Of a stretch of 64,000 nucleotides of DNA, positions 770 to 58,934 are shown in pieces. Below the pieces are notes generated by a model. The model was not told the DNA's origin, ran no database searches, and saw only the letters and a program-made list of their open reading frames with translations. How positions within the stretch are numbered: position 1 is the first letter of the stretch; each line of letters starts with the position of its first letter. The position numbers were made by a program, and so were the translations under genes. Source of the stretch: Candidatus Haliotispira prima (GTDB taxonomy: Bacteria > Spirochaetota > Spirochaetia > SP-2023); NCBI GenBank assembly GCA_029867005.1, contig CP123443.1, forward strand, positions 124,001 to 188,000, in the 5' to 3' direction.

Positions 770-1313
770 ATGTTGTACTCCTCGGTGTGACGATGTTGTA
801 GCTATGTCCGGTATCAATGGGTGTGTTTAAATGGATGTATTTTAAAATAGATAAAATGGCTGCCCGTGTCGTGTCATGCCAGTTCTTGATGCAACCCGGG
901 CCTTATTGGGAAGCCTGATATCCTCCGAAAAAGTTATGTACAAGCACGTTATTTCGTTTGTGGCAATTTTGTGGCAATAAACGGTGCTAAACTCCGGACA
1001 CAGGGGAAACAGGATACTGAAATTTGGCTCCGGCTGCAATTAGCCCGGTCTGTTCTGTTTTTTTATTTTGCTTGGGCCTACATTGAGGCAAAGACGAGGC
1101 CCAAAAGCAAAAACAAAGCGTGACGGCTGAGAGTGAACGCCTCCGGCAGGCTGGGCAGCAGGGCCCGATTCCGGTAGAGTCTGCGCTTGAATTGCAAGCC
1201 GTTTGGCAGCAGTGAACACAGAACAAAAAAAATTGTGCTTCGCAAAGATTACGGGCAGGTCGGAAACGGGTCTGTTTTCCCGATTTGGCACAGATGTGAG
1301 AAAGCAGACGAGT
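770..1313. other. intergenic region between leuC and pheS
   Basis: This 540-base spacer separates the divergent leuC and pheS genes. I see no tRNA, T-box or convincing hairpin. Two short plus-strand open stretches run about 971-1123 and 1123-1215 and overlap at GTGA, which could be tiny peptides or a decayed gene, but neither resembles a known family. The longer reading of pheS from 1203 falls inside it and is not favoured. Confidence 0.4.
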
Positions 1314-2363
1314 ATGGATTTGGGACAACTGGAACAAGACTTCTGCCGTGATTTGGCTCAAATAGGGGAAGAGCAGGGCCAGGCGGCTTTGGCCGAATTG
1401 AAGGCGGTCTATCTGGGCAAGAAGGGCCGGCTGCGTTCTCTGACGCAGAACATGAAGGAACTGAGCATTGAGGAAAAACGGGAGTTGGGTCGGGAAAGCA
1501 ACCGGCTCAAAGACCTGTTTGAAGAGCAACTAAAACACAAGCAGCAAAGTTTAGACAAGGCATTGCTGGAGCAGAAACTGAGCCGGGATTGGTTTGATTT
1601 CAGCCTTAGCGAACACTATTTGGAAGACCGTCAGCTCGGCGGTGCGATGCACCCGGTGAGTGCGGTGCAGCAAGAGCTCGAAGATATATTTTTGTCGATG
1701 GGTTTCCAAATCCTGGACGGGCCCCACATTGAAGATGAATATCACAACTTTGAGGCCCTCAATATTCCGGAGAGTCACCCGGCACGGGACATGCAGGATA
1801 CGTTTTGGTTCCGCGACATGCAGCACTTGTTGCGCACCCACACTTCCTGCATTCAGGTCCGTGGCATGGAAGCGCAGGACCGGCCGCCTTTCCGCTTTGT
1901 GGCACCGGGTAAGGTCTTTCGCTGTGAGGCTACCGATGCTTCGCACGAGGCTGTGTTCCACCAGATGGAAGGCATGATGGTGGCCGAAGAGCTGTCCGTT
2001 GCCCACCTGATCTATTTCATGAAGCAGTTGCTGACGGAAATTTTTCAACAGCAGGTTGAAATTCGTTTGCGGCCCGGCTACTTCCCTTTTGTGGAGCCGG
2101 GTTTCGAGCTGGATATTGCCTGTCTGGTCTGTGAGGGGCGGGGTTGCTCTGTGTGCAAGCGTACGGGTTGGCTGGAGCTGTTGCCCTGCGGTATGGTTCA
2201 CCCCCGGGTGCTGGAATACGGCGGCATTGACAGCAGGAACTATCGCGGTTTTGCCTTTGGTCTGGGCTTGGACCGCTTGGTGATGATGCGCTACCGCATC
2301 AATGATATTCGCTACCTGCACAGTGGCAATTTGGCCTTCTTACAACAGTTCCGGAGCTATTAG
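1314..2363 (+). CDS. pheS: phenylalanyl-tRNA synthetase alpha subunit
   Basis: PheS is the catalytic alpha chain of the alpha2-beta2 enzyme that charges tRNA-Phe in the cytoplasm. From the ATG at 1314 the protein is 349 aa. An N-terminal coiled-coil region (about 1-90) precedes the class II catalytic core, with motif 1 around GGAMHPVSAVQQELEDIF, motif 2 around FRFVAPGKVFRCEATDASH and motif 3 GLGLDRLVMMRY. This is the bacterial type, not the archaeal-like PheRS known in some spirochaetes. An in-frame ATG at 1203 would add 37 residues, but MDLGQLEQDF at 1314 fits the usual family start. No pheT follows; the downstream DNA is the lipoprotein array, whose first promoter starts 47 bases after the stop codon. 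Confidence 0.93.
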   Translation: MDLGQLEQDFCRDLAQIGEEQGQAALAELKAVYLGKKGRLRSLTQNMKELSIEEKRELGRESNRLKDLFEEQLKHKQQSLDKALLEQKLSRDWFDFSLSEHYLEDRQLGGAMHPVSAVQQELEDIFLSMGFQILDGPHIEDEYHNFEALNIPESHPARDMQDTFWFRDMQHLLRTHTSCIQVRGMEAQDRPPFRFVAPGKVFRCEATDASHEAVFHQMEGMMVAEELSVAHLIYFMKQLLTEIFQQQVEIRLRPGYFPFVEPGFELDIACLVCEGRGCSVCKRTGWLELLPCGMVHPRVLEYGGIDSRNYRGFAFGLGLDRLVMMRYRINDIRYLHSGNLAFLQQFRSY

Positions 2364-2409
2364 CTTTGTGTGTGAGCCGGAATATCCTTGCGCTCTTGCC
2401 AAAGCACTC

Positions 2410-2438
2410 TTGCCAAAATTCCTAAACGAATATACAAT
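2410..2438 (+). promoter_or_regulatory. promoter of lipoprotein Lp1
   Basis: TTGCCA, a 17-base spacer and TACAAT match sigma-70 elements. The same layout precedes every member of the array, which supports it as the real promoter. Confidence 0.7.
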
Positions 2439-2475
2439 CCGGTCTGAATCTACCCCATTTTACAGGAGCATCCTC

Positions 2476-3488
2476 ATGAAAAATCAGAATAAAGTATTGA
2501 CTGACATCGGTCTAAACAGTAGAATATCCAATATCCAATATCCAATATCCAATATCCAATATCATTAGAGAACAGCTATTTATTTTCGGCTCTATTAGTC
2601 CATTCTAAGTCTTTTTATCCATTATTTTTACGGTATTTTCTCTCCCTTTCCCTGTCTTTTCTTGGCATAATCTTACTCGGCTGCGCCCCGATCTCTGAGA
2701 CCGGCAAGGACCCGGCACCGAATCCCGATATTTCCTTTTCCGTCACCGCCGTAGCTTCCTCTGTGGAGTTTGAGGTGAACAGTATTCTGGCTGTCACGGA
2801 TGTGGGGGCCGTTATCCGCTTAGCTGCGGAAACCGTTCCCACTAAGGCCGAAGCTCAGGCGAGCAAGGGCTATGTGAGCCTGAGTATAGAGGCGGACAGT
2901 ACGCGCAAATTCAGTATCAGCCAACACTATGGCAGTGACTTTACGGATGGCCTTACTCTGGCCGATGTCCTTGTCCCCAATACGAGTTACAAACTATATT
3001 TGTTTATGCCATCGGCGATTGACCTAGCGCAAACAAAAATCAAAGGGGGAGAAATTAAGGAAGACAGGGTCGAAATTTCCTTTACCACGGCGATTTTACC
3101 CGCTGAGGGGGATGCCAAGTGGCTTAGCAGTAATGGCAAATGTGTGGAAGGCGTAGATACATTCTATTTTATGCAAGCACAACAAGGTGTGGCAGTGTGC
3201 TATTTTTATCTAAACTCTGCCCCTGTATTTGTTGACCTAACAGTTAAAAATGGAACTGTGTTCGATAATATGGGTACTTATAATGGTACAACGTCAGTTG
3301 TCAATGCCCATGCCAATTTTAATTTTGTATACGAGTCAATTTCCGGTTATACATCTAACTCCGCCAACCATTATAGCTATTGGATGGGCGCAGATAAAGT
3401 GAGTATTCTGAAAAATACAGTCAGAACATCGATTACGGACCAGTTGGGAGGCTCAATATTAGTCTTTCTTCCTGTGACTCGCTATTAG
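2476..3488 (+). CDS. phase-variable lipoprotein Lp1 (class 1), predicted OFF
   Basis: The ATG at 2476 (MKNQNKVLTDIG) follows AGGAG and runs into a 7-base repeat tract, stopping at 2568 after QYH. The lipobox LLGC (Cys codon at 2682) and the mature protein, open to 3488, lie in another frame. Adding one repeat unit, or removing two, joins the frames into a 339-aa protein with the lipid-anchored Cys at residue 72. The conserved half begins CAPISETGKDPAP and includes TRKFSISQHYGSDF; the variable half carries KWLSSNGKCVEGVD and ends PVTRY. No known family is recognised for the mature part. An outer-membrane or surface location is inferred from the lipobox. Lp2 and Lp3 are the closest relatives. 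Reinitiation at a non-standard codon cannot be excluded. Confidence 0.75.
2523..2563 (+). repeat. AATATCC heptanucleotide tract of Lp1 (5 units plus 6 bases)
   Basis: Five full AATATCC units and a partial AATATC lie inside the 5' coding region of Lp1. The unit is not a multiple of three, so slippage changes the reading frame. One more unit would put the ATG in frame with the lipobox. Confidence 0.95.
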
Positions 3489-3512
3489 GTATCCATTTGT
3501 ATTTTTTACCCT

Positions 3513-3556
3513 AAGGCTAAGGCCATGGCAATGGGAGCCTGTTTTTTAGCCTTTTT
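3513..3556 (+). terminator. probable terminator after Lp1
   Basis: AAGGCTAA pairs with TTAGCCTT, which is followed by a T run. The same element occurs after Lp2 and Lp3. The loop is long with partial internal pairing, so the assignment is moderate. Confidence 0.5.
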
Positions 3557-3689
3557 ATGGTTCTGTTTGTGTAAGCCTTAGACGTTCTTCTCAGCAGAGT
3601 CCCTGCCGGTTGTCGGAACCACGAAAGGCACGAAAGGGACGAAAGAATCAGTAGACGGAACCGGTTGCTACTGTTGTAAAAGGTACCTC

Positions 3690-3718
3690 TTGCTTAATTC
3701 TTTGAATGAACATACAAT
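3690..3718 (+). promoter_or_regulatory. promoter of lipoprotein Lp2
   Basis: TTGCTT, a 17-base spacer and TACAAT, in the conserved array cassette. Confidence 0.65.
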
Positions 3719-3779
3719 AAATTTGCAAACTCACTTTGCCTATCTTGCCATTTGCCCATTTATACGGAGGAGCACTTTT

Positions 3780-4789
3780 ATGAAAAAAAGAAACGAAATA
3801 TTGACCAACATTGGTCTAAACAGTAGAATATCCAATATCCAATATCCAATATCCAATATCCAAAACCATTAGAGAACAGCTATTTATTTTCGGCTCTATT
3901 AGTCCATTCTAAGTCTTTTTATCCATTATTTTTACGGTATTTCCTCTCCCTTTCCCTGTCTTTTCTTGGCATAATCTTACTCAGCTGCGCCCCGATCTCT
4001 GAGACCGGCCAGGACCCGGCACCAAATCCCGATATTTCCTTTTCCGTCACCGCCGTAGCTTCCTCTGTGGAGTTTGAGGTGAACAGTATTCCGGCTGTCA
4101 CGGATGTGGGGGCCGTTATCCGCTTAGCTGCGGAAGCCGTTCCCACTAAGGCCGAAGCTCAGGCGAGCAAGGGCTATGTGAGCCTGAGTATAGAGGCGGA
4201 CAGTACACGTAAATTCAGTATCAGCCAACACTATGGCAGTGACTTTACGGATGGCCTTACTCTGGCCGATGTCCTTGTCCCCAATACGAGTTACAAACTA
4301 TATTTGTTTATGCCATCGGCGATTGACTTAGGGCAAACAAAAATCAAAGGGGGAGAAATTAAGGAAGACCGGGTGGAAATTTCCTTTACCACGGCGATTT
4401 TACCCGCTGAGGGGGATGCCAAATGGCTTAGCAGTAATGGCAAATGTGTGGAAGGCGTAGATACATTCTATTTTATGCAAGCACAACAAGGTGTGGCAGT
4501 GTGCTACTTTTATCTAAATTTTGAGCCGGCATTTGTTGACGTATCAGTTCTCAAAAGTGGAAATGTGTCCAATAATATGGGCACTTATATTGGTACAAAG
4601 TCCATTGCCCATGTCAATTTTAATTTTATATACGGGTCAATTTCCGGCTATACATCCAATGCCACCAACCATTATAGCTATTGGATGGGTTCAGATAAAG
4701 TGAGTATTCTGAAAAATACAGTCAGAACATCGATTACGGACCAGTTTGGAGGCTCAATATTAGTCTTTCTTCCCGTGACTCGCTATTAG
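3780..4789 (+). CDS. phase-variable lipoprotein Lp2 (class 1), predicted OFF
   Basis: This is a near copy of Lp1. GGAGGAG precedes the ATG at 3780 (MKKRNEILTNIG), and this frame stops at 3872 just after the repeat. The mature protein is in another frame, with lipobox LLSC (Cys codon at 3986), open to 4789. One extra repeat unit would give a 338-aa lipoprotein with Cys72. The first half is almost identical to Lp1, including TRKFSISQHYGSDF. The C-terminal half differs at several points, such as VSVLKSGNVSNNMGTY. High identity with Lp1, extending into the intergenic DNA, suggests recent tandem duplication. Function is unknown; a surface-exposed lipoprotein is inferred. Confidence 0.75.
3827..3861 (+). 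repeat. AATATCC tract of Lp2 (5 units)
   Basis: Five perfect AATATCC units in the Lp2 leader, followed by AAAACC. One additional unit restores the lipoprotein frame. Confidence 0.95.
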
Positions 4790-4813
4790 GTATCCATTTG
4801 TATTTTTCACCCT

Positions 4814-4856
4814 AAGGCTAAGACCGTGGCAACGGAAGCCTGTTTTTAGCCTTTTT
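4814..4856 (+). terminator. probable terminator after Lp2
   Basis: AAGGCTAA and TTAGCCTT arms followed by T residues, as after Lp1. Confidence 0.5.
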
Positions 4857-4917
4857 ATGTCCCGTTTGTGTAAGCCTTAGACGTTCTTCTCAGCAGAGTC
4901 TCTGCCGGTTGTCGGAA

Positions 4918-4955
4918 CCAGGAAAGGCACGAAAGGCACGAAAGGGACGAAAGAA
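4918..4955 (+). repeat. short tandem ACGAAAGG-type repeats between Lp2 and Lp3
   Basis: About four degenerate 9-base units of the form (A/C)(C/G)GAAAGG(C/G/A) lie upstream of the Lp3 promoter. Shorter versions occur at about 3620-3650 and 6197-6222. Confidence 0.6.
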
Positions 4956-4997
4956 TCAGTAGACGGAACCGGTTGCTACTGTTGTAAAAGGCCCCCC

Positions 4998-5026
4998 TTG
5001 CCTAATTCTTTGAATGAACATACAAT
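4998..5026 (+). promoter_or_regulatory. promoter of lipoprotein Lp3
   Basis: TTGCCT, a 17-base spacer and TACAAT, in the conserved array cassette. Confidence 0.7.
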
Positions 5027-5087
5027 AAATTTGCAAACTCACTTTGCCTATCTTGCCATTTGCCCATTTACCCGGAGGAGCACTTTT

Positions 5088-6096
5088 ATGAAAAAAAGAA
5101 ACGAAATATTGACAGATATTGGCACAAATAGTACAATATCCAATATCCAATATCCAATATCCAATATCCAATCAACTACTAAAACCTTCATTCATTAATT
5201 TTCTCTTTTTATTCAAATTTTCCCCATTACTTTCTCGATTATTTCCCTCATCCTTCTGCTTTTTTTCCATTCTCTTCATTCATCTGTTTTTGTCTGCCTG
5301 TGCCCCGATCTCTGAGACTGGCAAGGACCCGGCACCGAATCCCGATATTTCTTTTTCCGTCACCGCTGTAGCATCCTCTGTGGAGTTTGAGGTTAGCAGT
5401 ATTCCGGCTGTCACGGATGTGGGGGCCGTTATCCGCTTAGCTGCGGAAGCCGTTCCCACTAAGGCCGAAGCTCAGGAGAGCAAGGGCTATGTGAGCCTGA
5501 GTATAGACGCGGACAGTACGCGTAAATTCAGTATCAGCCAACACTATGGCAGTGACTTTACGGATGGCCTTACTCTGGCCGATGTCCTCTCACCCAATAC
5601 GAGTTACAAACTGTATTTGTTTATGCCATCGGAGATTGACTTAGCGCAAACAAAAATTAAAGGGGGAGAAATTAAGGAAGACAGGATAGAAGTTTCCTTT
5701 ACCACGGTGAGTCTGCCCGCTGAGGGGGATGCCAAGTGGCTTAGCAGTAATGGCAAATGTGTGGAAGGTGTAGATACCTTATATTTTATGCAAGCACAAC
5801 AAGGTGTGGCAGTGTGCTATTTTTATCTAAATTTTGAGCCGGCATTTGTTGACGTATCAGTTAAAAATGGGAACCTGATCCATAACATCGGTATTTACAG
5901 TACTACCTCGGCTTCTGGTGCCAATTTTAATTTTGTATATGGGCCAACTTTTGGATATACATCTAACTCAAAGAACCATTATTTCTATTGGATGGGCGCA
6001 GATAAAGTGAGGATTCTGGAACAGACAGTTGAAAAATCGATTACGACACAGTCCGGAGACTCAATAATCGTTTCTATTCCCGTAACTCGCTATTAA
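5088..6096 (+). CDS. phase-variable lipoprotein Lp3 (class 1), predicted OFF
   Basis: GGAGGAG precedes the ATG at 5088 (MKKRNEILTDIGTNS). The ATG frame ends at 5198 (TKTFIH, stop). The signal segment, with FCFFSILFIHLFLSAC (Cys codon at 5299), and the mature protein are open to 6096 in another frame. Loss of one repeat unit, or gain of two, gives a 333-aa lipoprotein with Cys69. A TTG at 5119 is by chance in the lipoprotein frame but has no ribosome site and is not favoured. The mature part belongs to class 1 with Lp1 and Lp2, but its last 80 residues diverge (IHNIGIYSTTSASGANF). Function is unknown. Confidence 0.75.
5135..5169 (+). repeat. AATATCC tract of Lp3 (5 units)
   Basis: Five perfect units. 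The lipoprotein would be in frame with four or seven units and is out of frame with five or six. Confidence 0.95.
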
Positions 6097-6120
6097 ATAT
6101 CCATTTGTATTTCTCACCCT

Positions 6121-6165
6121 AAGGCTAAGGCCATGGCAACGGGAGCCTGTTTTTTAGCCTTTTTA
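6121..6165 (+). terminator. probable terminator after Lp3
   Basis: AAGGCTAA and TTAGCCTT arms followed by four T residues, as after Lp1 and Lp2. Confidence 0.5.
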
Positions 6166-6230
6166 TGGCTCTGTTTGTGTAAATCTTAGCATGGAATCTC
6201 GGAACCACGAAAGACACGAAAAGGCACCCC

Positions 6231-6259
6231 TTGTCTAATTCTTTGAATGAATATATTGT
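6231..6259 (+). promoter_or_regulatory. promoter of BspA-like lipoprotein
   Basis: TTGTCT, a 17-base spacer and TATTGT: the same cassette as the Lp genes but with a weaker -10 element. Confidence 0.5.
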
Positions 6260-6297
6260 TATGCTGTAAGTCCATCCTATTTTTGGGGAGTATTCCG

Positions 6298-7524
6298 ATG
6301 AAGAATCAAGATAAAATTTCAACGGACATTGGTATAACATATTCGGTATCTAATATCCCCTTGACTAAGACTTATTTAGAAGGCAGTTCTCGGACGGTTG
6401 AGTCGTCGTCTGTTCTACCTCAAAATAAACTCAAATTTTTTCCACTTTTCTGCTTCTTTTCCATTTTTTTCATTTATTTCTTTCTATCCGCCTGTACTGA
6501 CCTGGGCACAAACTCTTCTACTGCCCAATACACTGTCAGCTTTGAAACCAATGGAGGCAGCTCAGTACCTCCGGTGACGGTAACCGGTGGCACGGCACTA
6601 AGCCAAACCATAACGGCCACCAAGGCGGCCGACGGGGACACGACCTACTATTTTGGAGACTGGTACACCACAGCCACAGGGCATACGGGTAAGACCAAGT
6701 ATGATTATACCAAACGGGTAACAGGCAATATGACGCTCTACGCCCGCTGGTACACCGAGCAACCTGCCGACAGGGTCGCTTTGATGACAACCATTGCTGC
6801 TTTGAGTGATAATGAGGACCTCAACCATATTGATGTGCGAAAGGTGACTAATATGGGCCAACTCTTCCAAGGAAAGTCTACCTTTAATGGGGATATTTCG
6901 GGTTGGGATGTCTCCAAAGTTACCATTATTTTGGGTATGTTTGAGAAGGCCGAAACATTCAATCAACCCATAGGAGATTGGGATGTCTCCAATGTTACGA
7001 CTATGTACAATATGTTTCGGGAGGCTAAAAAATTCAATCAAGCTATAGGAGATTGGGATGTTTCCAATGTTACCAGTATGGAGGGTATGTTTCGGGAGGC
7101 TAAAGAATTCAATCAAACTATAGAAAATTGGAATGTCTCCAAAGTTACCATTATGCTGAGTATGTTTCAGGAGGCTGAAAAATTCAATCAACTTATCGGA
7201 GGTTGGAATGTCTCCAAAGTTACTACGATGAAAAGTATGTTCTATAAGGCTTCCGCCTTTAATCAACCGATAGGGAGGTACTGGGATGTCTCCGGTGTGA
7301 CTGATATGGAGAGAATGTTTCAGGAAGCTGAAAAATTCAATCAAGACCTGGAAGAGTGGGATGTCTCCAGCGTTACGAATATGTCTAATATGTTTAATGG
7401 TACCACAGCTTTTGACCAGAATATCTCAACCTGGACTGTGACCCAGGTAACCGATTATGCAGACATTTTTACCGATAGCGGTATTGGCAGAATTTATAAA
7501 CCCGCCAAATTTCGATTGCCTTAA
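6298..7524 (+). CDS. BspA-like (DUF285) leucine-rich-repeat surface lipoprotein
   Basis: From the ATG at 6298 the 408-aa protein begins MKNQDKISTDIG, the same leader as the Lp genes. It continues in one open frame to a lipobox LSAC with Cys66. After the Cys comes a Listeria/Bacteroides-type repeat (about 80-155, FETNGGSSVPPVTVTGG to MTLYARWYTE). Then about eight DUF285/BspA units of roughly 25 residues follow, with the pattern WDVSxVTxMxxMFxxAxxFNQ. Such proteins often act at the cell surface in binding host or matrix, but that role is not shown here. There is no AATATCC tract, and the ATG and lipobox share a frame, so this gene is a natural in-frame control for the array. An ATG or GTG further upstream at 6247 is not supported. 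Confidence 0.88.
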   Translation: MKNQDKISTDIGITYSVSNIPLTKTYLEGSSRTVESSSVLPQNKLKFFPLFCFFSIFFIYFFLSACTDLGTNSSTAQYTVSFETNGGSSVPPVTVTGGTALSQTITATKAADGDTTYYFGDWYTTATGHTGKTKYDYTKRVTGNMTLYARWYTEQPADRVALMTTIAALSDNEDLNHIDVRKVTNMGQLFQGKSTFNGDISGWDVSKVTIILGMFEKAETFNQPIGDWDVSNVTTMYNMFREAKKFNQAIGDWDVSNVTSMEGMFREAKEFNQTIENWNVSKVTIMLSMFQEAEKFNQLIGGWNVSKVTTMKSMFYKASAFNQPIGRYWDVSGVTDMERMFQEAEKFNQDLEEWDVSSVTNMSNMFNGTTAFDQNISTWTVTQVTDYADIFTDSGIGRIYKPAKFRLP

Positions 7525-7568
7525 GGAAGGCTGGCTATCTGTGTTCCACTCTCTTGCAAAGGCCTTCC

Positions 7569-7640
7569 TTGCCTAATTCTTTGAATGAATATACTGCTAT
7601 GCTGTAAGTCCATCCTATTTGGGGAGGAATCCTCTCATAG
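7569..7640 (+). pseudogene. orphan lipoprotein promoter and leader remnant
   Basis: TTGCCT, a 17-base spacer and TACTGC, plus a GGGGAGGA ribosome-site region, match the BspA-like gene upstream sequence almost base for base. The expected ATG is destroyed (it reads ATAG at about 7638), and the DNA then changes to unrelated AT-rich sequence. This looks like the truncated start of a lost array member. Confidence 0.6.
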
Positions 7641-7740
7641 AAAATCAATATGTAGTAGCATTACATGATGAGATACTTGAAATTAGAATGCTTTGGTTGC
7701 TGTCAAGCGGACAAATTAGAGATAAGGGAGATTAACAATT

Positions 7741-7968
7741 ATGTTGGAGACAGAGCGGAATTATTACAAGCAGAACCAGACTGAAATGCTCGAGAAATAT
7801 AGGGGCCAATGGTTTGTTATCTCCGGTGAATCTGTTCGCCCCTATGATAATCGAGGTCAAGCCTATGATAGTGGCGTAAAAGACTACGGCCTCGGCAAGT
7901 TTCTAATCCAACAGGTGGAAGAAGAGGAAAAACTTATTCAGCGATTTTATTCCAGGGCAATTGTTTAA
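7741..7968 (+). CDS. small DUF5678-like protein
   Basis: This 75-aa protein starts at an ATG with AAGGGAG about 10 bases upstream. The pattern YRGQWFVISGESVRPYDN followed by KDYGLGKFLIQQVEEEE resembles DUF5678, small proteins of unknown function often found near toxin-antitoxin-like or mobile genes. It sits in an AT-rich insert inside the lipoprotein array. Family placement is from pattern memory only. It could share a transcript with the orphan promoter at 7569. Confidence 0.55.
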   Translation: MLETERNYYKQNQTEMLEKYRGQWFVISGESVRPYDNRGQAYDSGVKDYGLGKFLIQQVEEEEKLIQRFYSRAIV

Positions 7969-8230
7969 ATATGTCCGGAAAAGATACGTCTTAAAAATAT
8001 GTCCACTATAATTTTAAACCTTTTTTGGGGTATCTATTTTTTATAATTTGCTGAATTTGCAGCCGGTAATTTTTAAAATTAAGGTAATTATACAGTAAAA
8101 TTCTATCCCCGGTTATTTAGGGTCTATCCATATCAGATGGACTCTTTTCCTATGTTGGAGCAAAGTCTTGACATTATTAGCAATCCGTATATGATGCGGC
8201 CATTGCTTTTCTTGAGCGCAGGGGGTACTT
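7969..8230. other. AT-rich intergenic region in the array insert
   Basis: No gene is seen. ATATGTCC occurs twice near 7970-8002, which could be a mobile-element end, but no partner repeat or transposase was found. The strong promoter for the next gene is at 8168. Confidence 0.4.
8168..8195 (+). promoter_or_regulatory. sigma-70-type promoter for the gene at 8231
   Basis: TTGACA, a 16-base spacer and TATGAT: a near-consensus promoter 35 bases upstream of the ATG. It is clearly different from the array promoter cassette. Confidence 0.7.
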
Positions 8231-8674
8231 ATGACAGTTCTTGGAATTGGTAAAATTATGCTGGATAATTACGATGTTTGGAATTATCCACATTTACATG
8301 TTGTACTCTATAAAGAGGATCATACTGATCTTGTTTCTGCCTTTTGTATTGAGGCCGGTGTTGATGCTTATGCAAGGGATGACACTTCTGCGTTTAAGAG
8401 CTTAGTTAGCGATACAATTGGTTTCCTGAAGAGTATGGATAAAGAGGCTTTATTTGATCATTTGGAATTTATAGCAGAAAGTACGGCCAATGATCACTTC
8501 TGGAGAGATTATAGAATTGCAGAGACATCTCTTGCTAAAATTGGTAATGACATAGGGACTAAAACTCTGGAGAGTTTAAAGTCGGAAATTGAAAATTTGA
8601 GAAGAGAGCTATCGAAGGAAACCAACTCGAATATTGCAGAACTGACATTCAATCCTATAGCTTATGCAGCATAA
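8231..8674 (+). CDS. hypothetical protein
   Basis: This 147-aa protein starts at an ATG preceded by AGGGGG. It is acidic overall, with a probable helical or coiled-coil segment near residues 100-135 (DIGTKTLESLKSEIENLRRELSKE). I do not recognise a family. No signal peptide or membrane segment is visible, so a cytoplasmic location is likely. It has a near-consensus promoter of its own and is followed after 12 bases by another small gene, so the two probably form an operon. Base composition is more AT-rich than the flanking core genes, suggesting acquisition by transfer. Confidence 0.6.
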   Translation: MTVLGIGKIMLDNYDVWNYPHLHVVLYKEDHTDLVSAFCIEAGVDAYARDDTSAFKSLVSDTIGFLKSMDKEALFDHLEFIAESTANDHFWRDYRIAETSLAKIGNDIGTKTLESLKSEIENLRRELSKETNSNIAELTFNPIAYAA

Positions 8675-8686
8675 GTAGGATTGAAT

Positions 8687-8968
8687 ATGAAAGAAATGGG
8701 TCTTCAATGTATTATTAATGCGTTTGAAAATGCAGAACATATTTTTGAAGTAGAAAAAGTAGAAAAAAAGGATAATGCACATCGGATCTATCTTATTCTA
8801 AGACATTCTGATAGTAATTCGAGAAGGACACGGTCTCAAATTATTTTTCAAAAATGTGAGGGGAATAGGGGTACCAGTATTATAATAATGGATCCGATAC
8901 TAAAGAGGCATGAGGAAATGTATAGTGTTTCACTATCCGAATGCATTATAGATAGAGTGTCTTCTTAA
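8687..8968 (+). CDS. hypothetical protein
   Basis: This 93-aa protein starts at the ATG at 8687 with AGTAGGA upstream. An in-frame TTG at 8681 would add two residues. It is basic in its centre (HSDSNSRRTRSQIIFQK) and ends CIIDRVSS. No family is recognised. It follows the gene at 8231 closely and is probably co-transcribed. A two-gene cassette such as a toxin-antitoxin or immunity pair is possible but unsupported. Confidence 0.5.
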   Translation: MKEMGLQCIINAFENAEHIFEVEKVEKKDNAHRIYLILRHSDSNSRRTRSQIIFQKCEGNRGTSIIIMDPILKRHEEMYSVSLSECIIDRVSS

Positions 8969-9075
8969 TATTATTAGTAGTAAAGAGATTTTACCATCTT
9001 TATTGTTGTATTTATAATTAGTTTCATTTATCACTGATACATTCCGTCCCTTCGGGCCGGGAGTTCCCCCCCCCC

Positions 9076-9104
9076 TTGCCTAATTTCCTAAATGAACATA
9101 CAAT
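9076..9104 (+). promoter_or_regulatory. promoter of lipoprotein Lp4
   Basis: TTGCCT, a 17-base spacer and TACAAT. A run of about ten C residues lies just upstream at 9066-9075, itself a possible slippage site. Confidence 0.7.
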
Positions 9105-9165
9105 AAAGCCGCAAACGCACTTTGCCCATTTTCTCGTTTGCCCGTTTGCCGGAAGGAGCACTTTT

Positions 9166-10186
9166 ATGAAAAAAAGAGATGAAATATTGACTAATATCAG
9201 TCTAAACAGTACAATATCCAATATCCAATATCCAATATCCAATATCCAATCAATTACTAAAACCTTCATTCATTAATTTTCTCCTTTTATTCAAATTTTC
9301 TCGATTATTTCTCTCATTATTCTGCTTCTTTTCCATTCTCTTCATTCATCTGTTTTTAGCCGCCTGCGCTCCAATCTCTGACACCGACGATGACCCGGCA
9401 ACCGAGTCCACTAATATTTCCTTCTCCGTCACCGCCGTGGCTTCCTCTGTGGAGTTAGAGGTGAGCAGTATTCCGGCTGTTACGGATGTGGGGGCCGTTA
9501 TCCGCTTAGCTGCGGAAGCCGTACCCACTAAGGCCGAAGCCCAGGCGAGCAAGGGCTATGTCAGCCTGAGCATAGAGGCAGACAGTACGCGTAAGTTCAG
9601 TATCAGCCAACACTATGGCAGTAATTTTGAGGATGGCTTTAGTCTTGTGGATGTTCTCTCACCGAATACGAGTTACAAACTGTATTTGTTTATGCCTTCG
9701 GCGATTGACTTAGGGCAAACCAAAATTAAAGGCGGGAAGATTCAGGGAGACAGCGTGGAAATTTCGTTTACCACGGCGAGTTTACCCGCTGAGGGGGATG
9801 TGATATGGGGCGAGAAGTTTGCCGCCAAAGAACATGTTACCAGTCTGGGCCAATATCATTTCATGGAAAACCAAACAGGTGTAATAGTACTGTATTTTCA
9901 AAGCCCCTATAGAGTTTTTAGTCATGAGATCGCCATTGAGGGGGACTCGTTTCCGCCTTTAGGGGTGGGCCGTTATTATGGCAGTCCAATGACGGTAACA
10001 CCGCTCACCAATTTTTATTTTAATACCGGGCTAGTAGCCGGTTATCCCTCTACGACAACGAGCCAAACATTTTATACAATTGCGGCAGACAATGGGACTT
10101 CTATTCTTCGGGGGCGACTAAAAAACTCGACGACTCCTCCCACCGGAGCTTCCTATAACGTTACGAATCCAATATCCCGTTATTAA
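9166..10186 (+). CDS. phase-variable lipoprotein Lp4 (class 2), predicted OFF
   Basis: The ATG at 9166 (MKKRDEILTNISLNS) follows GGAAGGAG. Its frame stops at 9276 after the repeat. The signal segment and lipobox LAAC (Cys codon at 9365) and the mature protein to 10186 are in another frame. Loss of one unit gives a 337-aa lipoprotein with Cys65. In the current state the lipoprotein frame has an upstream TAA and no start codon before residue GTG 9437, inside the mature region. The N-terminal half matches Lp1-Lp3. The C-terminal half is class 2 (WGEKFAAKEHVTSLGQYHFM, ending NPISRY). Function is unknown. Confidence 0.75.
9213..9247 (+). repeat. AATATCC tract of Lp4 (5 units)
   Basis: Five perfect units. 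Removal of one unit restores the lipoprotein frame. Confidence 0.95.
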
Positions 10187-10267
10187 CGCGGAATATTTTG
10201 TATTGGGGTTCTAATAAGATAAGAGTATTGGAGATTCGACAAACGCACCAACTTATCGGATCGGGCA

Positions 10268-10297
10268 TGAAAAGACACGTCATGACGTGTCTTTTCA
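10268..10297. terminator. 30-bp perfect palindrome after Lp4
   Basis: Arms TGAAAAGACACGTCA and TGACGTGTCTTTTCA form a perfect 30-base palindrome. It could be a bidirectional terminator hairpin or a dimer-binding operator between Lp4 and Lp5. A matching element with a compensating base-pair change lies after Lp5. Confidence 0.6.
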
Positions 10298-10326
10298 AAG
10301 GGCCACCTGCCAAAGAACGCTGCCCC

Positions 10327-10355
10327 TTGCCAAAAGCCCTAAATGAACATACAAT
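10327..10355 (+). promoter_or_regulatory. promoter of lipoprotein Lp5
   Basis: TTGCCA, a 17-base spacer and TACAAT, in the conserved array cassette. Confidence 0.7.
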
Positions 10356-10416
10356 AAACCCGCAAACGCACTTTGCCCATTTTGCCATTTAGCCACTTTC
10401 CCGGAGGAGCACTTTT

Positions 10417-11446
10417 ATGAAAAGACGAGACGAAATATTGACAGATATTGGCACAAATAGTACAATATCCAATATCCAATATCCAATATCCAATATCCAA
10501 TCAATTACTAAAACCTTCATTCATTAATTTTCTCCTTTTATTCAAATTTTCTCGATTATTTCCCTCATTATTCTGCTTTTTTTCCATTCTCTTCATTCAT
10601 CTGTTTTTGTCTGCCTGCGCCCCGATCTCTGACACGGGCAAGGACCCGGCACCCGAGTCCACTAATATTTCCTTTTCGGTCACCGCCGTGGCTTCCTCTG
10701 TGGAATTAGAGGTGAGCAGTATTCCGGCCGTTACGGATGTGGGGGCCGTTATCCGCTTAGCTGAAGGAGCCGTTCCCACAAAGGCCGAAGCCCGGGCGAG
10801 CAAGGGCTATGTCAGCTTGGGTATAGAGGCGGACAGTACACGTAAATTCAGTATCAGCCAACACTATGGCAGTAATTTTGAGGATGGCTTTACTCTTGCG
10901 GATGTTCTCTCACCGAATACGAGTTACAAACTGTATTTGTTTATGCCCTCGGTGATTGACTTAGGGCAAATCAAAATTAAAGGCGGGAAGATTGAGGGAG
11001 ACCGGGTGGAAATTTCGTTTACCACGGCGAGTTTACCCGCTGATGGGGATGTGCTATGGGGCGAGAAGTTTGCCGCCAAAGAACATGTTACCAGTCTGGG
11101 CCAATATCATTTCATGGAAAGCCAAACAGGTGTAATAGTACTGTACTTTCAAAGCCCCTATAGACCTTTTAGTCATGATCTCACCATTGAGGTTGAGGGT
11201 GAATCGTCTTCGTCTTTTCAAGCGGTGGGCCGTTATAGTGGTAGTGGAATGACCGTAGCACCGCTCACCAATTTTTATTTTAATACCGGTTTAGTAGCCG
11301 GTTACCCCTCTACGACAACGAGCCAAACATTTTATATGATTGCCGCAGACAACGGGACTTCTATCCTTCGGGGTCTGTTAAAAAGTTCTACCACTCCTCC
11401 CGCCGGAACGTCCTATAACGTTACGAATCCAATATCCCGTTATTAG
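10417..11446 (+). CDS. phase-variable lipoprotein Lp5 (class 2), predicted OFF
   Basis: GGAGGAG precedes the ATG at 10417 (MKRRDEILTDIGTNS), and that frame ends shortly after the repeat at TKTFIH. The lipoprotein frame, with FFSILFIHLFLSAC, is open to 11446. Loss of one unit gives a 340-aa lipoprotein. It is a close paralogue of Lp4 across both halves (FAAKEHVTSLGQYHFMESQ). It carries a small insertion (EVEGESSSSFQAVGRY) where Lp4 has EGDSFPPLGVGRY, so divergence is concentrated in one presumably exposed loop. A TTG at 10448 is in the lipoprotein frame but lacks a ribosome site. Function is unknown. Confidence 0.75.
10464..10498 (+). repeat. AATATCC tract of Lp5 (5 units)
   Basis: Five perfect units. 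Removal of one unit restores the lipoprotein frame. Confidence 0.95.
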
Positions 11447-11524
11447 TTGGATAGTCTGTATTTGGATTCTAATAAGCAGGAGTATTGGAGCTTCGACAAG
11501 CGCACCGACTTATCGGGTCGGGCA

Positions 11525-11554
11525 TGTAAAGACACGTCATGACGTGTCTTTACA
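11525..11554. terminator. 30-bp perfect palindrome after Lp5
   Basis: Arms TGTAAAGACACGTCA and TGACGTGTCTTTACA. Compared with the element at 10268, one base in each arm has changed so that pairing is kept. This implies selection on the palindrome. Confidence 0.6.
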
Positions 11555-11583
11555 AAGGGCCACTAGCCAAAGAACGTTGCCCC

Positions 11584-11612
11584 TTGCCAAAAGCCCTAAA
11601 TGAACATACAAT
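11584..11612 (+). promoter_or_regulatory. promoter of lipoprotein Lp6
   Basis: TTGCCA, a 17-base spacer and TACAAT, in the conserved array cassette. Confidence 0.7.
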
Positions 11613-11673
11613 AAACCAGCAAACGCACTTTGCCCATTTTGCCATTTAGCCACTTTCCCGGAGGAGCACTTTT

Positions 11674-12685
11674 ATGAAAAGACGAGACGAAATATTGACA
11701 GATATTGGCACAAACAGTATAATATCCAATATCCAATATCCAATATCCAATATCCAATCAATTGCTAAAACTATCATCTATTAATTTTAGTCTTTTATTC
11801 AAATTCCCCCCATTATTTTGCTTTTTTTTCATTCTCTTTATTCATCTGTTTCTGGCTGCCTGCGTCCCGATCTCTGACACCGGCGATGACCCACCGGCGG
11901 CGGCCAAACCAAGCATGTCCTTTTCTACAAATGCTGTGGTATCTTCTGTGCAATTGGAAATGAGCAGTAGTTTCGCCATTACCACCATAGGGGCGGTTAT
12001 TCGCTTAGCTACAGAAGCAGCTCCCACCAAGGCAGAAGCCGAAGCCAATGCGGGTCATGTCAGCCTGAGTATAGACGCAAACAGCCCGCGTAAATTCAGC
12101 ATCAGCCAGCACTATGGCAGTGATTTTACGGATGGGCTTACTCTGGCCGATGTCCTTACCGCTAATACTCAATACAAACTGTATCTGTTTTTTGAAACTA
12201 CTGCTATTCCGTCCGAAACGACCATTGAGGGGGCCGCCCTCAATAATGATGTCGTGGTTCTGCCATTTAGCACTGCTACACTGGCTCTTGCAGGGGATGC
12301 CGTATGGGATAGCGCATGGACAAACAATCAGTTTGTCGGAAGCCTTCCGGAGTGGGGATACAGTGAAAATCAAAAAGGCATTTTTGTTGTTTATACAAAA
12401 ATTAATAGTACTTTTGCCAGTGCTCAACTGATTACTCGCACAGCAGATGATATATTGCTACAAATTATAGGAGACATTGCTATAGGTTTTGTCGATCCTA
12501 AGACAGGATTTCTTTTCAATATACTGAAACTGGGTGGTACTTATCCTGCCGGAGATAACTACTATTACGTAATAGGTGCCGGTAATACAAAGAAAATCTC
12601 CGGGAAGCACTTTGTCTTAGACATTACAATTGATTTAGGCTCGGTTGATCTCAAATCACCCCTCATACGTTATGGTAATCCATAA
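11674..12685 (+). CDS. phase-variable lipoprotein Lp6 (class 3), predicted OFF
   Basis: The ATG at 11674 (MKRRDEILTDIGTNS) follows GGAGGAG, and its frame stops soon after the repeat (AKTIIY). The signal segment, ending HLFLAAC, and the mature protein are open to 12685 in another frame. Loss of one unit gives a 334-aa lipoprotein. A TTG at 11762 happens to lie in the lipoprotein frame directly before the hydrophobic segment. It would give a compact signal peptide, so low-level expression from it is conceivable, although no ribosome site is seen. The upstream half keeps RKFSISQHYGSDFTDGLTLADVL. The C-terminal half is class 3 but the most divergent member (WDSAWTNNQFVGSLPEWGY). It ends with the plain stop GNP. 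Confidence 0.72.
11721..11755 (+). repeat. AATATCC tract of Lp6 (5 units)
   Basis: Five perfect units. Removal of one unit restores the lipoprotein frame. Confidence 0.95.
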
Positions 12686-12745
12686 CTGTATTTTATCTTT
12701 ATGTAGCGGGCTTTAGGCAAGTGGGGCCTTTTGCAATGGCCCCCC

Positions 12746-12774
12746 TTGCCTAACTCTCTAAACGAATATACAAT
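12746..12774 (+). promoter_or_regulatory. promoter of lipoprotein Lp7
   Basis: TTGCCT, a 17-base spacer and TACAAT, in the conserved array cassette. Confidence 0.7.
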
Positions 12775-12835
12775 CAACTGGCAAACGCACTTTGCCCATT
12801 TTGCCATTTGCCCACTTTCCCGGAGGAGCACTTTT

Positions 12836-13847
12836 ATGAAAAAACGAGATGAAATATTGACAGATATTGGCACAAACAGTATAATATCCAATATCCAATA
12901 TCCAATATCCAATATCCAATCAATTACTAAAACTATTATCTATTAATTTTAGCCTTTTATTCAAATTCCCCCCATTATTTTCTCGATTATTTCCCCCATT
13001 ATTCTGCTTTTTTTCCATTCTCTTCATTCATCTGTTTCTGGCCGCCTGCGCCCCGATCTCTGACAACAGTGACCCACCGGCCAAACCGAGCGTTTCCCTT
13101 GTCGCAAACGCTGTGGTCTCTTCTGTGCAATTGGAAATGAGCAGTATTGTAACAATCCCCAAGATAGGGGCCGTTATTCGCCTGGCCGGGGAAGCAGCCC
13201 CCACCAAGGCAGAAGCCGAAGCCAATGCGGGTTATGTCAGCTTGAGTATAGACGCGGACAGTACGCGTAAATTCAGCATCAGCCAGCACTATGGCAGTGA
13301 CTTTACAGATGGGCTTACTCTGGCCGATGTCCTTGCCGCCAATACCCAATACAAACTGTATCTGTTTTTTGAAACCAATGCTATTAGTCTGATTGAAGGG
13401 GCCACCCTGACAAATGGTGTGGCAGCCCTTTCATTTACTACCGCTACGCTCCCTCCCGCTGGGGACGGGGTCTGGGGTCGGGCACGTACAGATGAAAAGT
13501 TTGTAGCCGGCCTTCCGGAATGGCACTTTGATTCCGACCAAAAAGGGGTATTCGTGGCCTACGCACAATTCACAGATGATTTTACCTCTGTTGCATTCAC
13601 GACTCGCACGGCAGATGATACCACGAAAAAGCAGGTAGGAACCGCAAGAGTTGGTGCTATCCTGCCCAATGCGGGATTTCTTTTCAATTTTTCCAAATTG
13701 GGAGGCAGCCATCCGGGTAACTACTACTATGTGATAAGTGCTGATGACACAGATAAACAAATCGGAAAGAATTACCGACTGGAATTTGTAGATTTTAGTC
13801 TCGGATTACATGCTCGCGCACCCCTCACACGTTATGGTAATCCATAA
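12836..13847 (+). CDS. phase-variable lipoprotein Lp7 (class 3), predicted OFF
   Basis: GGAGGAG precedes the ATG at 12836 (MKKRDEILTDIGTNS), and its frame ends at 12946. The lipoprotein frame contains HLFLAACAPISDN and is open to 13847. Loss of one repeat unit gives a 334-aa lipoprotein. The mature protein carries the shared block TRKFSISQHYGSDFTDGL and a class 3 end (WGRARTDEKFVAGLPEWHF). It is nearly identical to Lp8, so the two are recent duplicates. Function is unknown; a surface location is inferred from lipidation. Confidence 0.75.
12883..12917 (+). repeat. AATATCC tract of Lp7 (5 units)
   Basis: Five perfect units. Removal of one unit restores the lipoprotein frame. Confidence 0.95.
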
Positions 13848-13905
13848 CTGTATTTTATCTTTATGTAGCGGGCTTTAGGCAAGGGGGCCTCTTGCAATGG
13901 CCCCC

Positions 13906-13934
13906 TTGCCTAACTCTCTAAACGAATATATAAT
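13906..13934 (+). promoter_or_regulatory. promoter of lipoprotein Lp8
   Basis: TTGCCT, a 17-base spacer and a consensus TATAAT: the strongest promoter of the array. Confidence 0.72.
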
Positions 13935-13986
13935 CAACCCGCAAACGCACTTTGCCCATTTTCCGTTTTCCCGGAGGAGTACTTTT

Positions 13987-14965
13987 ATGAAAAAACGAGA
14001 CAAAATATTGACAGATATTAGCACAAACAGTACAATATCCAATATCCAATATCCAATATCCAATATCCAATCAATTACTAAAACTATTATCTATTAATTT
14101 TAGCCTTTTATTCAAATTTCCCCCCTTATTTTGCTTTTTCTCCATTCTCTTCATTCATCTGTTTCTGGCTGCCTGCGCCCCGATCTCTGACAACAGTGCC
14201 CCACCCGCAAAACCGAGTGTTTCCCTTGTCGCAAACGCTGTGGTCTCTTCTGTACAATTGGAAATGAGCAGTATTGTAACAATTGCCAAGATAGGGGCCG
14301 TTATTCGCCTGGCCGGGGAAGCAGCCCCCAGCAAGGCAGAAGCCGAAGCCAATGCGGGTTATGTCAGCCTGAGTATAGATGCGGACAGTACACGTAAATT
14401 CAGCATCAGCCAACACTATGGCAGTGACTTTGCGGACGGGCTTACTCTGGCCGATGTTCTTACCGCCAATACCCAATACAAACTGTATCTGTTTTTTGAA
14501 ACCAATGCTATTAGTCTGATTGAAGGGGCCACCCTGACAAATGGTGTGGCAGTCCTTTTATTTACCACCGCTACGCTCCCTCCCGCCGGGGACGGGGTCT
14601 GGGGTAGGGCACGTACAGATGAAAAGTTTGTAGCCGGCCTTCCGGAATGGCACTTTGATTCCGACCAAAGAGGGGTATTCGTGGCCTACGCACAATTCAC
14701 AGATGATTTTACCTCTGTTGCATTGACGACTCGCACGGCAGATGATACCGAGAAAAAGCAGGCAGGAACCGCAAGAGTTGGTGCTATCCTGCCCAATGCG
14801 GGATTTCTTTTCAATTTTTCCAAATTGGGAGGCAGCCATCCGGGTAACTACTACTATGTGATAAGTGCCGATGAGACAGATAAACAAATCGGAAAGAGTT
14901 ACCGACTGGAATTTGTAGATTTTAGTCTCATATTACATGTTCGCGCACCCCTCACGCGTTATTGA
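13987..14965 (+). CDS. phase-variable lipoprotein Lp8 (class 3), predicted OFF
   Basis: Last array member. GGAGGAG precedes the ATG at 13987 (MKKRDKILTDISTNS), and this frame stops at 14097. The lipoprotein frame contains HLFLAACAPISDN and is open to 14965. Loss of one unit gives a 323-aa lipoprotein. It is almost identical to Lp7 except for a shorter signal region and scattered substitutions. Its stop codon differs from Lp7, and the unit's normal 3' flank is missing. It abuts the flagellar genes on the opposite strand, marking the right edge of the array. Confidence 0.75.
14034..14068 (+). repeat. AATATCC tract of Lp8 (5 units)
   Basis: Five perfect units. Removal of one unit restores the lipoprotein frame. 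Confidence 0.95.
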
Positions 14966-35556: not shown

Positions 35557-35620
35557 AGGGGAGACAGCAGGGGGAGACAGCAGGGGGAGACAGCAGGGGG
35601 AGACAGCAGGGGGAGACAGG
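35557..35620. repeat. 13-bp minisatellite (5 units)
   Basis: Five near-perfect units of AGGGGGAGACAGC; the first lacks one G and the last ends in G. It lies between rsgA and the promoter side of the MBL/cNMP gene. Copy number may vary between strains. Confidence 0.9.
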
Positions 35621-44499: not shown

Positions 44500-44522
44500 G
44501 TTTGCCGTTCCGTTCCGTGGTG

Positions 44523-44592
44523 AGGGTCTGCATGGTAGGGTCTGCATGGTAGGGTCTGAATGGTAGGGTCTGAATGGTACGGTCTGCATGGT
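44523..44592. repeat. 14-bp minisatellite (5 units)
   Basis: Five units of AGGGTCTG(C/A)ATGGT lie between the AraC gene and the PHP gene: two with C, two with A, and a final unit with one more change. Its copy number may vary. Confidence 0.9.
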
Positions 44593-57214: not shown

Positions 57215-57250
57215 AGACCGAAATTTCAGAACTTTAGCGGAGTTTTCTTA

Positions 57251-57798
57251 TGAAATGTCAAAATACGCTATTGACCGGTGACTGTCCAAACAGTATAATG
57301 TCCGTTATCCATTCCTAGCTCAGAATATATATACAGTCAGTTTATTTTCTCTTATTTCTCAATAAACCTCAGTTTTCCAAAACCTTTCTGTTTCCATTCT
57401 TTTGCTTTTTTCCATTCTTCTTATTCATTTGGTTCTGTCCGGCTGTGTGCCGCTGTCCAAGACTGGTGATCCGCCTGCGGCATCCAACGATTGCAGGCGG
57501 TACATTGACGGTGGCTATCTTTGCCCTGACTTTGGCCCTCGGATTCCGGAATATTGGCACCACAACCAATACCAACAACGATAATAACAACAATAACAAT
57601 ATCAAAGTGTGGCGGGGAGTGACCGCAGATGAAGGGTTTACACCTCGAGATGGTCATGCTGCGGTCGGGCTAAACAATGATCTAATTATTATAGCAGGAC
57701 ATTTTGGGGCAGTTGAGACAAATGAAGTGCTGAGGTCTTCAGACAATGGCCGGACCTGGACAAGCATGGCATTCGGCATAGCAAGCTCAAGGTTTTTG
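57251..57798 (+). pseudogene. lipoprotein leader plus kelch-like remnant
   Basis: After the promoter an ATG at 57251 (MKCQNTLLTGDCPNS) copies the array leader, but the AATATCC tract is replaced by degenerate sequence and stops at TAG near 57316. A lipobox LSGC lies in another frame (57402-57584). A third open stretch (57445-57804) contains an Asn-rich tract and a kelch-like repeat (GFTPRDGHAAVGLNNDLIIIAG, shown in part; SSDNGRTWTSMAFG). It ends where acyltransferase copy 3 begins. This is a decayed or truncated lipoprotein, probably cut by the copy 3 insertion or duplication. Confidence 0.55.
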
Positions 57799-57800
57799 GC

Positions 57801-58934
57801 ATGATAGTCAAAAAGAACTACATATACGCCTTAAGAGGTCTAGCTACTCTGAGTGTGTTAGCAATCCATGTGATGTTTTATCTTCAAAATAACGAGGCTC
57901 TGTTTAAATACCCTCTAATTGTCCGGCAATTTGTCTCGGAAGGAGTAAGGGGTGTTCAGCTATTTTATGTATTAAGTGCCTTTACCTTATTTTTGTCGTA
58001 CCATAACCGAAAAGATCGGGAAATAAATCCTGACAGGAACTTCCTGCTCCGCAGATTTTTTAGGATAGCCCCGCTATATTATCTAGGTATTGTCTACTAT
58101 CTTTTTCAAGACGGACTGGGGCCAAGACTGTGGCTGGGTGATGCCGAATCCATTACAATGGCAAACATCGTCGCAAATGTATTCTTTGTTCACGGAGTCT
58201 ACCCGTATTGGATTACCAGCTTGGTTCCGGGCGGCTGGTCTATAACGGTTGAAATGGCCTTCTATCTGATGATTCCGCTTTTAGTCAGAAAAATTAAATG
58301 TACGAGTCATGCGGTTAGTTTCACAATCCTAAGTTTAATGATTTCATCCGGATTAACAGCCATACTGAAACGTTATCCGTTAATAGCGTATGAACCATTA
58401 CATAATATGTATCTATATTTTTATTTTCCCAATCAGTTAGCCCTATTTGGTTTGGGAATCATTGCTTATTTTGTTATTATACAAAAAGATATAAAAGTAT
58501 TTTCCAGTTTTAATTATCTATTGCTGAGTGCCTGGTGTATTTTTTACCTGATTGTAGGATTGTCTCTTCCCTCCCATTTTATATTTGGCATTGCATTTTT
58601 TCTTCTAATAATTTCTCTGGCGAAGTATGAGAATGTAATCTTGGTAAATAAGGCCACAATTTTTTTGGGAAAAATAAGTTACAGTGTCTACCTATCTCAT
58701 ATCGCAATATTATACTGGCTGCGTAAATTTCATCTGTTAGATTTTATCGATATTCAGGGAGATTGGGATCGCATTTTAAATTATTTGCTGGGACTAGCCT
58801 TGACTATTGTATTATCAGTTACTGTTTCATGGGTTTTATTTAAGGTTGTTGAAGAGCCTTTCCAAAAGATGGGGAAGAATATCATCTTAAAATTGGAACA
58901 AAAGGATAGGAAACAGGAGATTAAAGCTGGATAA
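57801..58934 (+). CDS. acyltransferase family 3 protein (intact copy)
   Basis: This 377-aa integral membrane O-acyltransferase has about ten predicted membrane segments. The start MIVKKNYIYALRG includes the RG of the conserved N-terminal motif. LSAIHVMF-type His (LAIHVMFYLQ), RRFFRIAPLYYLG and the GGWSITVEM motif match acyltransferase-3 proteins that modify surface polysaccharides or peptidoglycan. It is the only one of three tandem copies that is complete. It has no clear ribosome site and begins at the end of a kelch-like fragment, so its expression signal is uncertain. Confidence 0.82.
   Translation: MIVKKNYIYALRGLATLSVLAIHVMFYLQNNEALFKYPLIVRQFVSEGVRGVQLFYVLSAFTLFLSYHNRKDREINPDRNFLLRRFFRIAPLYYLGIVYYLFQDGLGPRLWLGDAESITMANIVANVFFVHGVYPYWITSLVPGGWSITVEMAFYLMIPLLVRKIKCTSHAVSFTILSLMISSGLTAILKRYPLIAYEPLHNMYLYFYFPNQLALFGLGIIAYFVIIQKDIKVFSSFNYLLLSAWCIFYLIVGLSLPSHFIFGIAFFLLIISLAKYENVILVNKATIFLGKISYSVYLSHIAILYWLRKFHLLDFIDIQGDWDRILNYLLGLALTIVLSVTVSWVLFKVVEEPFQKMGKNIILKLEQKDRKQEIKAG

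Follow-up and report, generated by a model that had tools for sequence, protein, structure and literature searches.

The chromosome segment of Candidatus Haliotispira prima analyzed here (contig CP123443.1, positions 124,001 to 188,000, a stretch of 64,000 nucleotides referred to as the window) carries an array of eight genes, Lp1 to Lp8, in each of which five perfect AATATCC units lie between an ATG preceded by a ribosome site and a lipobox segment in a different reading frame. A previous sequence-only reading, made without database searches, had described the array as eight lipoprotein genes, each with a ribosome site, an ATG, five heptamer units and a lipobox segment; all eight tracts are indeed present and perfect. 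The eight are, however, a single array within a family that extends over the genome and numbers nearly 400 genes, mostly predicted lipoproteins on sequence criteria. We consider it probable that the family is a translational switch resembling that of the Neisseria opa genes, in which the number of repeat units would set the frame between leader and export signal and would leave most genes OFF.

Anatomy and distribution of the gene family

In Lp1–Lp8 the distance from ATG to tract is 47 nucleotides (15 codons plus 2 nucleotides) in every gene. The ATG frame stops after 30 codons in Lp1 and Lp2 and after 36 codons in Lp3–Lp8, and the long lipobox frame is offset from it by 2 and 1 nucleotides, respectively, in agreement with the earlier arithmetic by which one unit gained (Lp1, Lp2) or lost (Lp3–Lp8) joins the two frames. 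Body frames of 309–326 amino acids, counted from the tract, likewise fit the 323–340 amino acids claimed with the leader included, a fit judged on the tracts as they stand. A 14-mer search allowing up to two mismatches returned 34 matches in the window, compared with 0.67 ± 0.89 in shuffles.

Over the whole genome (3,251,735 bases, one contig), the pattern TTGAC-N18-TANAAT-ATCCAATATCC has 375 exact matches (control, 0) and the three-unit heptamer has 1107, with tracts in the overlap between the contig ends counted twice in both figures. Given this overlap (674–12281 and 3240128–3251735; 11,608 bases, 99.98% identity, 2 mismatches), a circular chromosome is probable, with a little of its sequence entered twice in the record. 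A search of the genome with the Lp3 protein gave 816 first-look candidates; 150 were scored, and all 150 matched. The tracts were sampled in about 1.0 Mb of sequence around them, which covered 366 of the 375 motif matches before the last stretch was added. The working set comprises 378 tracts of at least two perfect units, after removal of two duplicates. They are arranged in 82 groups, each on one strand and with 1 to 11 tracts, and their gene spans total 431 kb, or 13.3% of the non-redundant genome length; a variant repeat unit is seen at 13 further loci. Neither the motif nor the heptamer was found in 393 other genomes of the class, and no relative of the family was found outside this genome.

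The usual order of elements is a sigma70-like promoter (P1), the ribosome site, the ATG, an open leader, the heptamer tract and a predicted export signal. Promoter-like matches scoring at least 9.5 lie upstream of the ATG in 341 of 360 genes, against 39 of 360 in the control (one mononucleotide shuffle for each gene). The most frequent form is TTGCCA-17-TACAAT, and the best match begins 61–100 nucleotides 5' of the ATG in 347 of 359 cases. The GGAGG-like ribosome site is conserved (242 tracts). As 360 of the 378 tracts have an ATG or GTG at −47, the non-triplet repeat is placed inside coding sequence. No stop interrupts the ATG frame in any of 206 distinct leaders (from 242 tracts), whereas the other two frames are interrupted in 204 and 166 of them, the first of these figures largely because TTGAC contains TGA. 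The lipobox pattern was matched in 318 of the 360 genes (42 gave no match) and lies 35–49 residues past the tract in 304 of the 318; these family members thus show the hydrophobic segment ending in a lipobox cysteine that is expected of lipoproteins with putative processing at that residue.

Inside the leader lies a second motif, P2 (TTGAC-N17-TANAAT), which the sequence-only reading had not reported. TAN precedes the tract and the first repeat unit gives AAT, so that P2 is, by its sequence, a conserved sigma70-type motif completed by the repeat itself. TTGAC stands exactly 26 nucleotides 5' of the tract in 235 of 243 tracts (the first set sampled), and four perfect units directly follow the P2 hexamers in 344 of 364 leaders, while most spacer positions vary widely. 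Leader codon 8 is TTG in 360/360 genes; among the leucine codons of the bodies TTG accounts for 19%. P2 is predicted to act as a promoter, with a start point that would fall within the tract.

Reading frames and constraint on the bodies

Only 15 of the 378 tracts join leader and body in frame (ON). Fourteen of these belong to the 360 tracts that have a start at −47, and one to the other 18. The remaining 363 are out of frame (OFF); among the 346 of them that have a start at −47, the leader ends at 30, 33 or 36 codons in 313. With four units, 176 of 177 tracts are at offset 2; with six, 76 of 80 are at offset 1; of the 92 five-unit tracts, 56 have offset 2, 28 have offset 1 and 8 are in frame. 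DUF285-type bodies are ON in 8 of 26 cases, with 2 to 8 units, compared with 7 of 351 for all other bodies (116 Lp-like, 220 unassigned and 15 Flg_new-like; Fisher's test, 7.8e-7), where bodies were typed by script pattern and one tract near a stretch end was left untyped. This difference suggests two regimes, in which about one third of the DUF285 genes are ON and the remainder of the family is kept OFF. In-frame and out-of-frame versions of intact genes thus coexist in one genome, as paralogs and not as alleles of one locus.

The OFF bodies are open and, by sequence comparison, selectively constrained. Bodies stay open for at least 150 amino acids in 359 of 360 genes. For the 318 genes with a lipobox, the interval from the tract to the lipobox cysteine is free of stops in the body frame of 317 and in the third frame of 67. 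Pairs of OFF genes give a pooled ratio of nonsynonymous to synonymous change (dN/dS) of 0.38, below 1 in 120 of 120 pairs; these were taken from 418 pairs of 80–98% identity, closest first, with each gene used at most twice and pairs with a synonymous difference above 0.6 excluded. A comparison of the three frames over the interval from tract to cysteine (353 pairs) gives a ratio of 0.48 for the body frame and of 0.77 and 0.84 for the others. In 126 of the 318 genes this interval holds no ATG, GTG or TTG in the body frame, which leaves a start in the leader and reading across the tract as their only usual route to translation. In a model of the Lp5 body (50-sequence alignment), the signal segment is followed by two predicted beta-rich parts, of which the second resembles Ig-V domains, a common arrangement. 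In Pfam, none of the five fragments submitted (from Lp1, Lp3, Lp5, Lp6 and Lp8) reached a curated cut-off.

From the anatomy and the frames, which are direct observations, we infer switching, expression and P2 activity. Gain or loss of a whole unit, produced by slipped-strand mispairing, would probably switch individual genes between ON and OFF; in-frame genes would be expressed and their products would reach the surface; and selection would keep most genes OFF as a reserve of alternative coat proteins. A more elaborate, composite form of this switch is possible but doubtful as a whole. It would have one tract set the frame and also complete the −10 box of the leader promoter at nearly 400 loci, with P2 keeping the tract where transcription actively begins and promoting unit turnover there, and with selection returning most loci to a class-specific OFF number, a genome-wide stock of coat proteins one unit from expression.

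Unit number and alternative explanations

Comparison of paralogs indicates that unit number changes. Fourteen ON genes start at −47; eight of them have an OFF paralog that is identical at 48 or more of the 60 nucleotides past the tract and differs from them by whole units. In one ON/OFF pair the tracts have 6 and 5 units, with flanks identical at 45/47 and 57/60 positions; in a second they have 7 and 6 units, with flanks identical at 44/47 and 58/60. The 13 variant loci (contig positions 260356, 428310, 429627 and ten others) point in the same direction. There, all units after the first read CATATCC (12 loci) or TATATCC (1 locus), while the first unit, itself a part of the −10 box, remains AATATCC; the leader frame closes at 33 codons in 12 of the 13 and at 39 in one, and one locus has ATA at the expected position of the ATG. 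Such rewritten tracts look like concerted evolution of the repeat, for which unit turnover is much more likely than parallel point mutations, an argument qualified by the fact that the 12 CATATCC loci may descend from one ancestor.

Several observations weigh against the opa-like switch. Unit number is exactly four in 176 of the 183 members of the largest sub-class, is near-fixed also in another (70 of 71), and agrees within 252 of 266 pairs of paralogs (bodies 80–98% identical, with identical 12 nucleotides after the tract); this lineage therefore gives no visible sign of fast tract change. For a hypermutable tract, four to six units is a small number. The divergence of leaders keeps pace with that of bodies, and the 11.6-kb duplicate at the contig ends, which represents one strain, shows no gap difference between its copies. 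For five of the 14 ON genes, no OFF paralog matches at more than 30 of the 60 nucleotides past the tract, and a single body type accounts for 8 of the 15 ON genes. The deficit of ON tracts relative to the one third expected by chance (15/378, P = 4e-45 with loci treated as independent) speaks for the switch, but this P value is overstated because the loci share ancestry. No amino-acid constraint is seen on the leader residues (ratio 0.79, like other frames). Finally, scanning the region of the array for promoters in general gave 38 matches against 26.8 ± 5.4 in shuffles, a modest excess that leaves the promoter case resting on position and conservation. Of the earlier claim, the frame switch set by repeat number stands as the best-supported mechanism, but the sequence gives no sign of frequent slippage. 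Two accounts fit the data: the tracts change slowly, or selection favors a particular OFF number.

The near-fixed unit number would also suit programmed ribosomal frameshifting, in which the genes are expressed at a low level in their present register by ribosomes that shift within or after the tract. Every frame of the tract reads the same NIQYPIS peptide cycle, and the purifying selection on OFF bodies and the conserved ribosome site and P1 are in agreement with it. The shift required, however, differs by sub-class (offset 2 with four units, offset 1 with six, mixed with five). No common slippery site was noticed on reading the sequences, no systematic scan having been made, and the genome contains natural in-frame versions as well as in-frame genes that lack a tract. 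We regard frameshifting as unlikely.

We give about the same low standing to a silent archive that would feed a few in-frame expression sites by gene conversion in place of switching at each locus. The vls locus of Borrelia and the vlhA genes of Mycoplasma synoviae are archives used in this way. Here most copies are OFF, they are tandem and similar, and 13 of the 14 groups with an in-frame gene contain exactly one. Yet most copies each retain a P1, a ribosome site, an ATG and an open leader, whereas the vlhA pseudogenes of M. synoviae are reported to be promoterless (PMC4206340), and the parallel divergence of leaders and bodies also speaks against an archive. Least likely of all is that body translation starts 3' of the tract on P2 transcripts, with the ATG leader merely an upstream open reading frame (ORF): P2 is kept beyond coding need (the invariant TTG codon 8) and its start point would lie in the tract, but the 126 genes without a start codon there, the absence of any ribosome-site-like purine run noticed in that interval on reading the sequences, and its constraint in the body frame oppose it. 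The opa-like switch thus remains our preferred reading of the family.

Neighboring features and comparison with known systems

Within the array lies a tractless lipoprotein gene (6298–7524) that exceeds the Pfam curated cut-offs for DUF285 (270.7 bits) and Flg_new (List_Bact_rpt; 35.3 bits). It is one of 12 tractless genes with a like leader in the sampled stretches, selected for an open frame of at least 200 amino acids; the 11 others are mostly of the MQNRNKILTD type. The TANAAT hexamer is missing at its position in all 12, and TTGAC is retained in 9. The ORFs adjoining the Lp array look flagellar-like by eye, and those adjoining a decayed relic of the unit resemble acyltransferases, again by eye. 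Two other tandem repeats in the window also have units that are not multiples of three: a perfect one at 35558–35619 (13 bp × 4.8) and one at 44518–44592 (14 bp × 5.3).

The sequence-only reading took the host to be a spirochaete. A PheS-like ORF (window 1311–2363) has its nearest relatives in Spirochaetales metagenome-assembled genomes, the best being a Spirochaeta at 64% identity, which fits; many Bacteriovoracaceae score almost as high, which tempers the assignment. These near-equal matches to both groups hint at an old transfer of the gene.

Table 1 Positions of the family units and related genes in the window
Feature	Position	Strand	Remark
Lp1 P1	2410..2438	+	TTGCCA-17-TACAAT
Lp1 ATG leader ORF	2476..2568	+	30 codons
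Lp1 P2	2497..2525	+	internal promoter-like motif
Lp1 tract	2523..2557	+	5 units
Lp1 signal segment, lipobox, body	2558..3488	+	other frame
Lp2 P1	3690..3718	+	TTGCTT-17-TACAAT, weaker
Lp2 leader ORF	3780..3872	+	30 codons
Lp2 P2	3801..3829	+	
Lp2 tract	3827..3861	+	5 units
Lp2 signal segment, body	3862..4789	+	
Lp3 P1	4998..5026	+	
Lp3 leader ORF	5088..5198	+	36 codons
Lp3 P2	5109..5137	+	
Lp3 tract	5135..5169	+	5 units
Lp3 signal segment, body	5170..6096	+	
Tractless DUF285/Flg_new lipoprotein	6298..7524	+	in frame; like leader; P2 hexamers absent; inside array
Lp4 P1	9076..9104	+	TTGCCT-17-TACAAT; another, more distant match ranked higher in the genome-wide promoter search
Lp4 leader ORF	9166..9276	+	36 codons
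Lp4 P2	9187..9215	+	
Lp4 tract	9213..9247	+	5 units
Lp4 signal segment, body	9248..10186	+	
Lp5 P1	10327..10355	+	
Lp5 leader ORF	10417..10527	+	36 codons
Lp5 P2	10438..10466	+	
Lp5 tract	10464..10498	+	5 units
Lp5 signal segment, body	10499..11446	+	
Lp6 P1	11584..11612	+	
Lp6 leader ORF	11674..11784	+	36 codons
Lp6 P2	11695..11723	+	TTGACA-17-TATAAT (12/12)
Lp6 tract	11721..11755	+	5 units
Lp6 signal segment, body	11756..12685	+	
Lp7 P1	12746..12774	+	
Lp7 leader ORF	12836..12946	+	36 codons
Lp7 P2	12857..12885	+	TTGACA-17-TATAAT (12/12)
Lp7 tract	12883..12917	+	5 units
Lp7 signal segment, body	12918..13847	+	
Lp8 P1	13906..13934	+	
Lp8 leader ORF	13987..14097	+	36 codons
Lp8 P2	14008..14036	+	
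Lp8 tract	14034..14068	+	5 units
Lp8 signal segment, body	14069..14965	+	
Decayed relic of unit	57250..57804	+	P1, ATG, P2 kept; tract eroded; body broken

If switching is real, about 13% of the genome would be held almost entirely OFF, and we know of no larger repeat-switched gene family in one bacterium. The organism poses two questions: what holds so many like switches out of frame, and for what reason the repeat incorporates a promoter motif. Its hundreds of loci are natural replicates for measuring tract change.

The opa products of Neisseria are outer-membrane proteins and not lipobox proteins, and we know of no opa counterpart of P2. The family described here shares with opa a repeat unit not divisible by three within the part of the gene that encodes the export signal. 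In opa, CTCTT pentamers in the coding sequence of the leader peptide restore or disrupt the frame, and switching is reported at about 1e-3 per cell per generation (PMC3745409). A typical gonococcal isolate is reported to have about 11 opa genes, whereas the present family counts nearly 400 and gives no sign of frequent tract change. The vlhA genes of Mycoplasma gallisepticum offer another likeness, that of many lipoprotein genes with unit number as the presumed control. There a (GAA)n repeat is reported to lie about 40 nucleotides upstream of the transcription start, with its unit number presumed to decide expression and the gene considered active only at exactly 12 (PMC6258824). The tract studied here differs in lying between ATG and lipobox and in shifting the frame. 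A promoter-repeat switch of the vlhA type does not fit the family, the tract lying 3' of the putative P1, the ribosome site, the ATG and the −10 box of P2. Short heptamer direct repeats at many genome sites also recall the TAACTGA repeats of Beggiatoaceae, which occur at 169 places in one genome, mostly just upstream of putative start codons, precede genes without common function and are proposed regulator binding sites (PMC4679880). Unlike these, the AATATCC tracts stand between the start codon and the export signal, and in one kind of gene.

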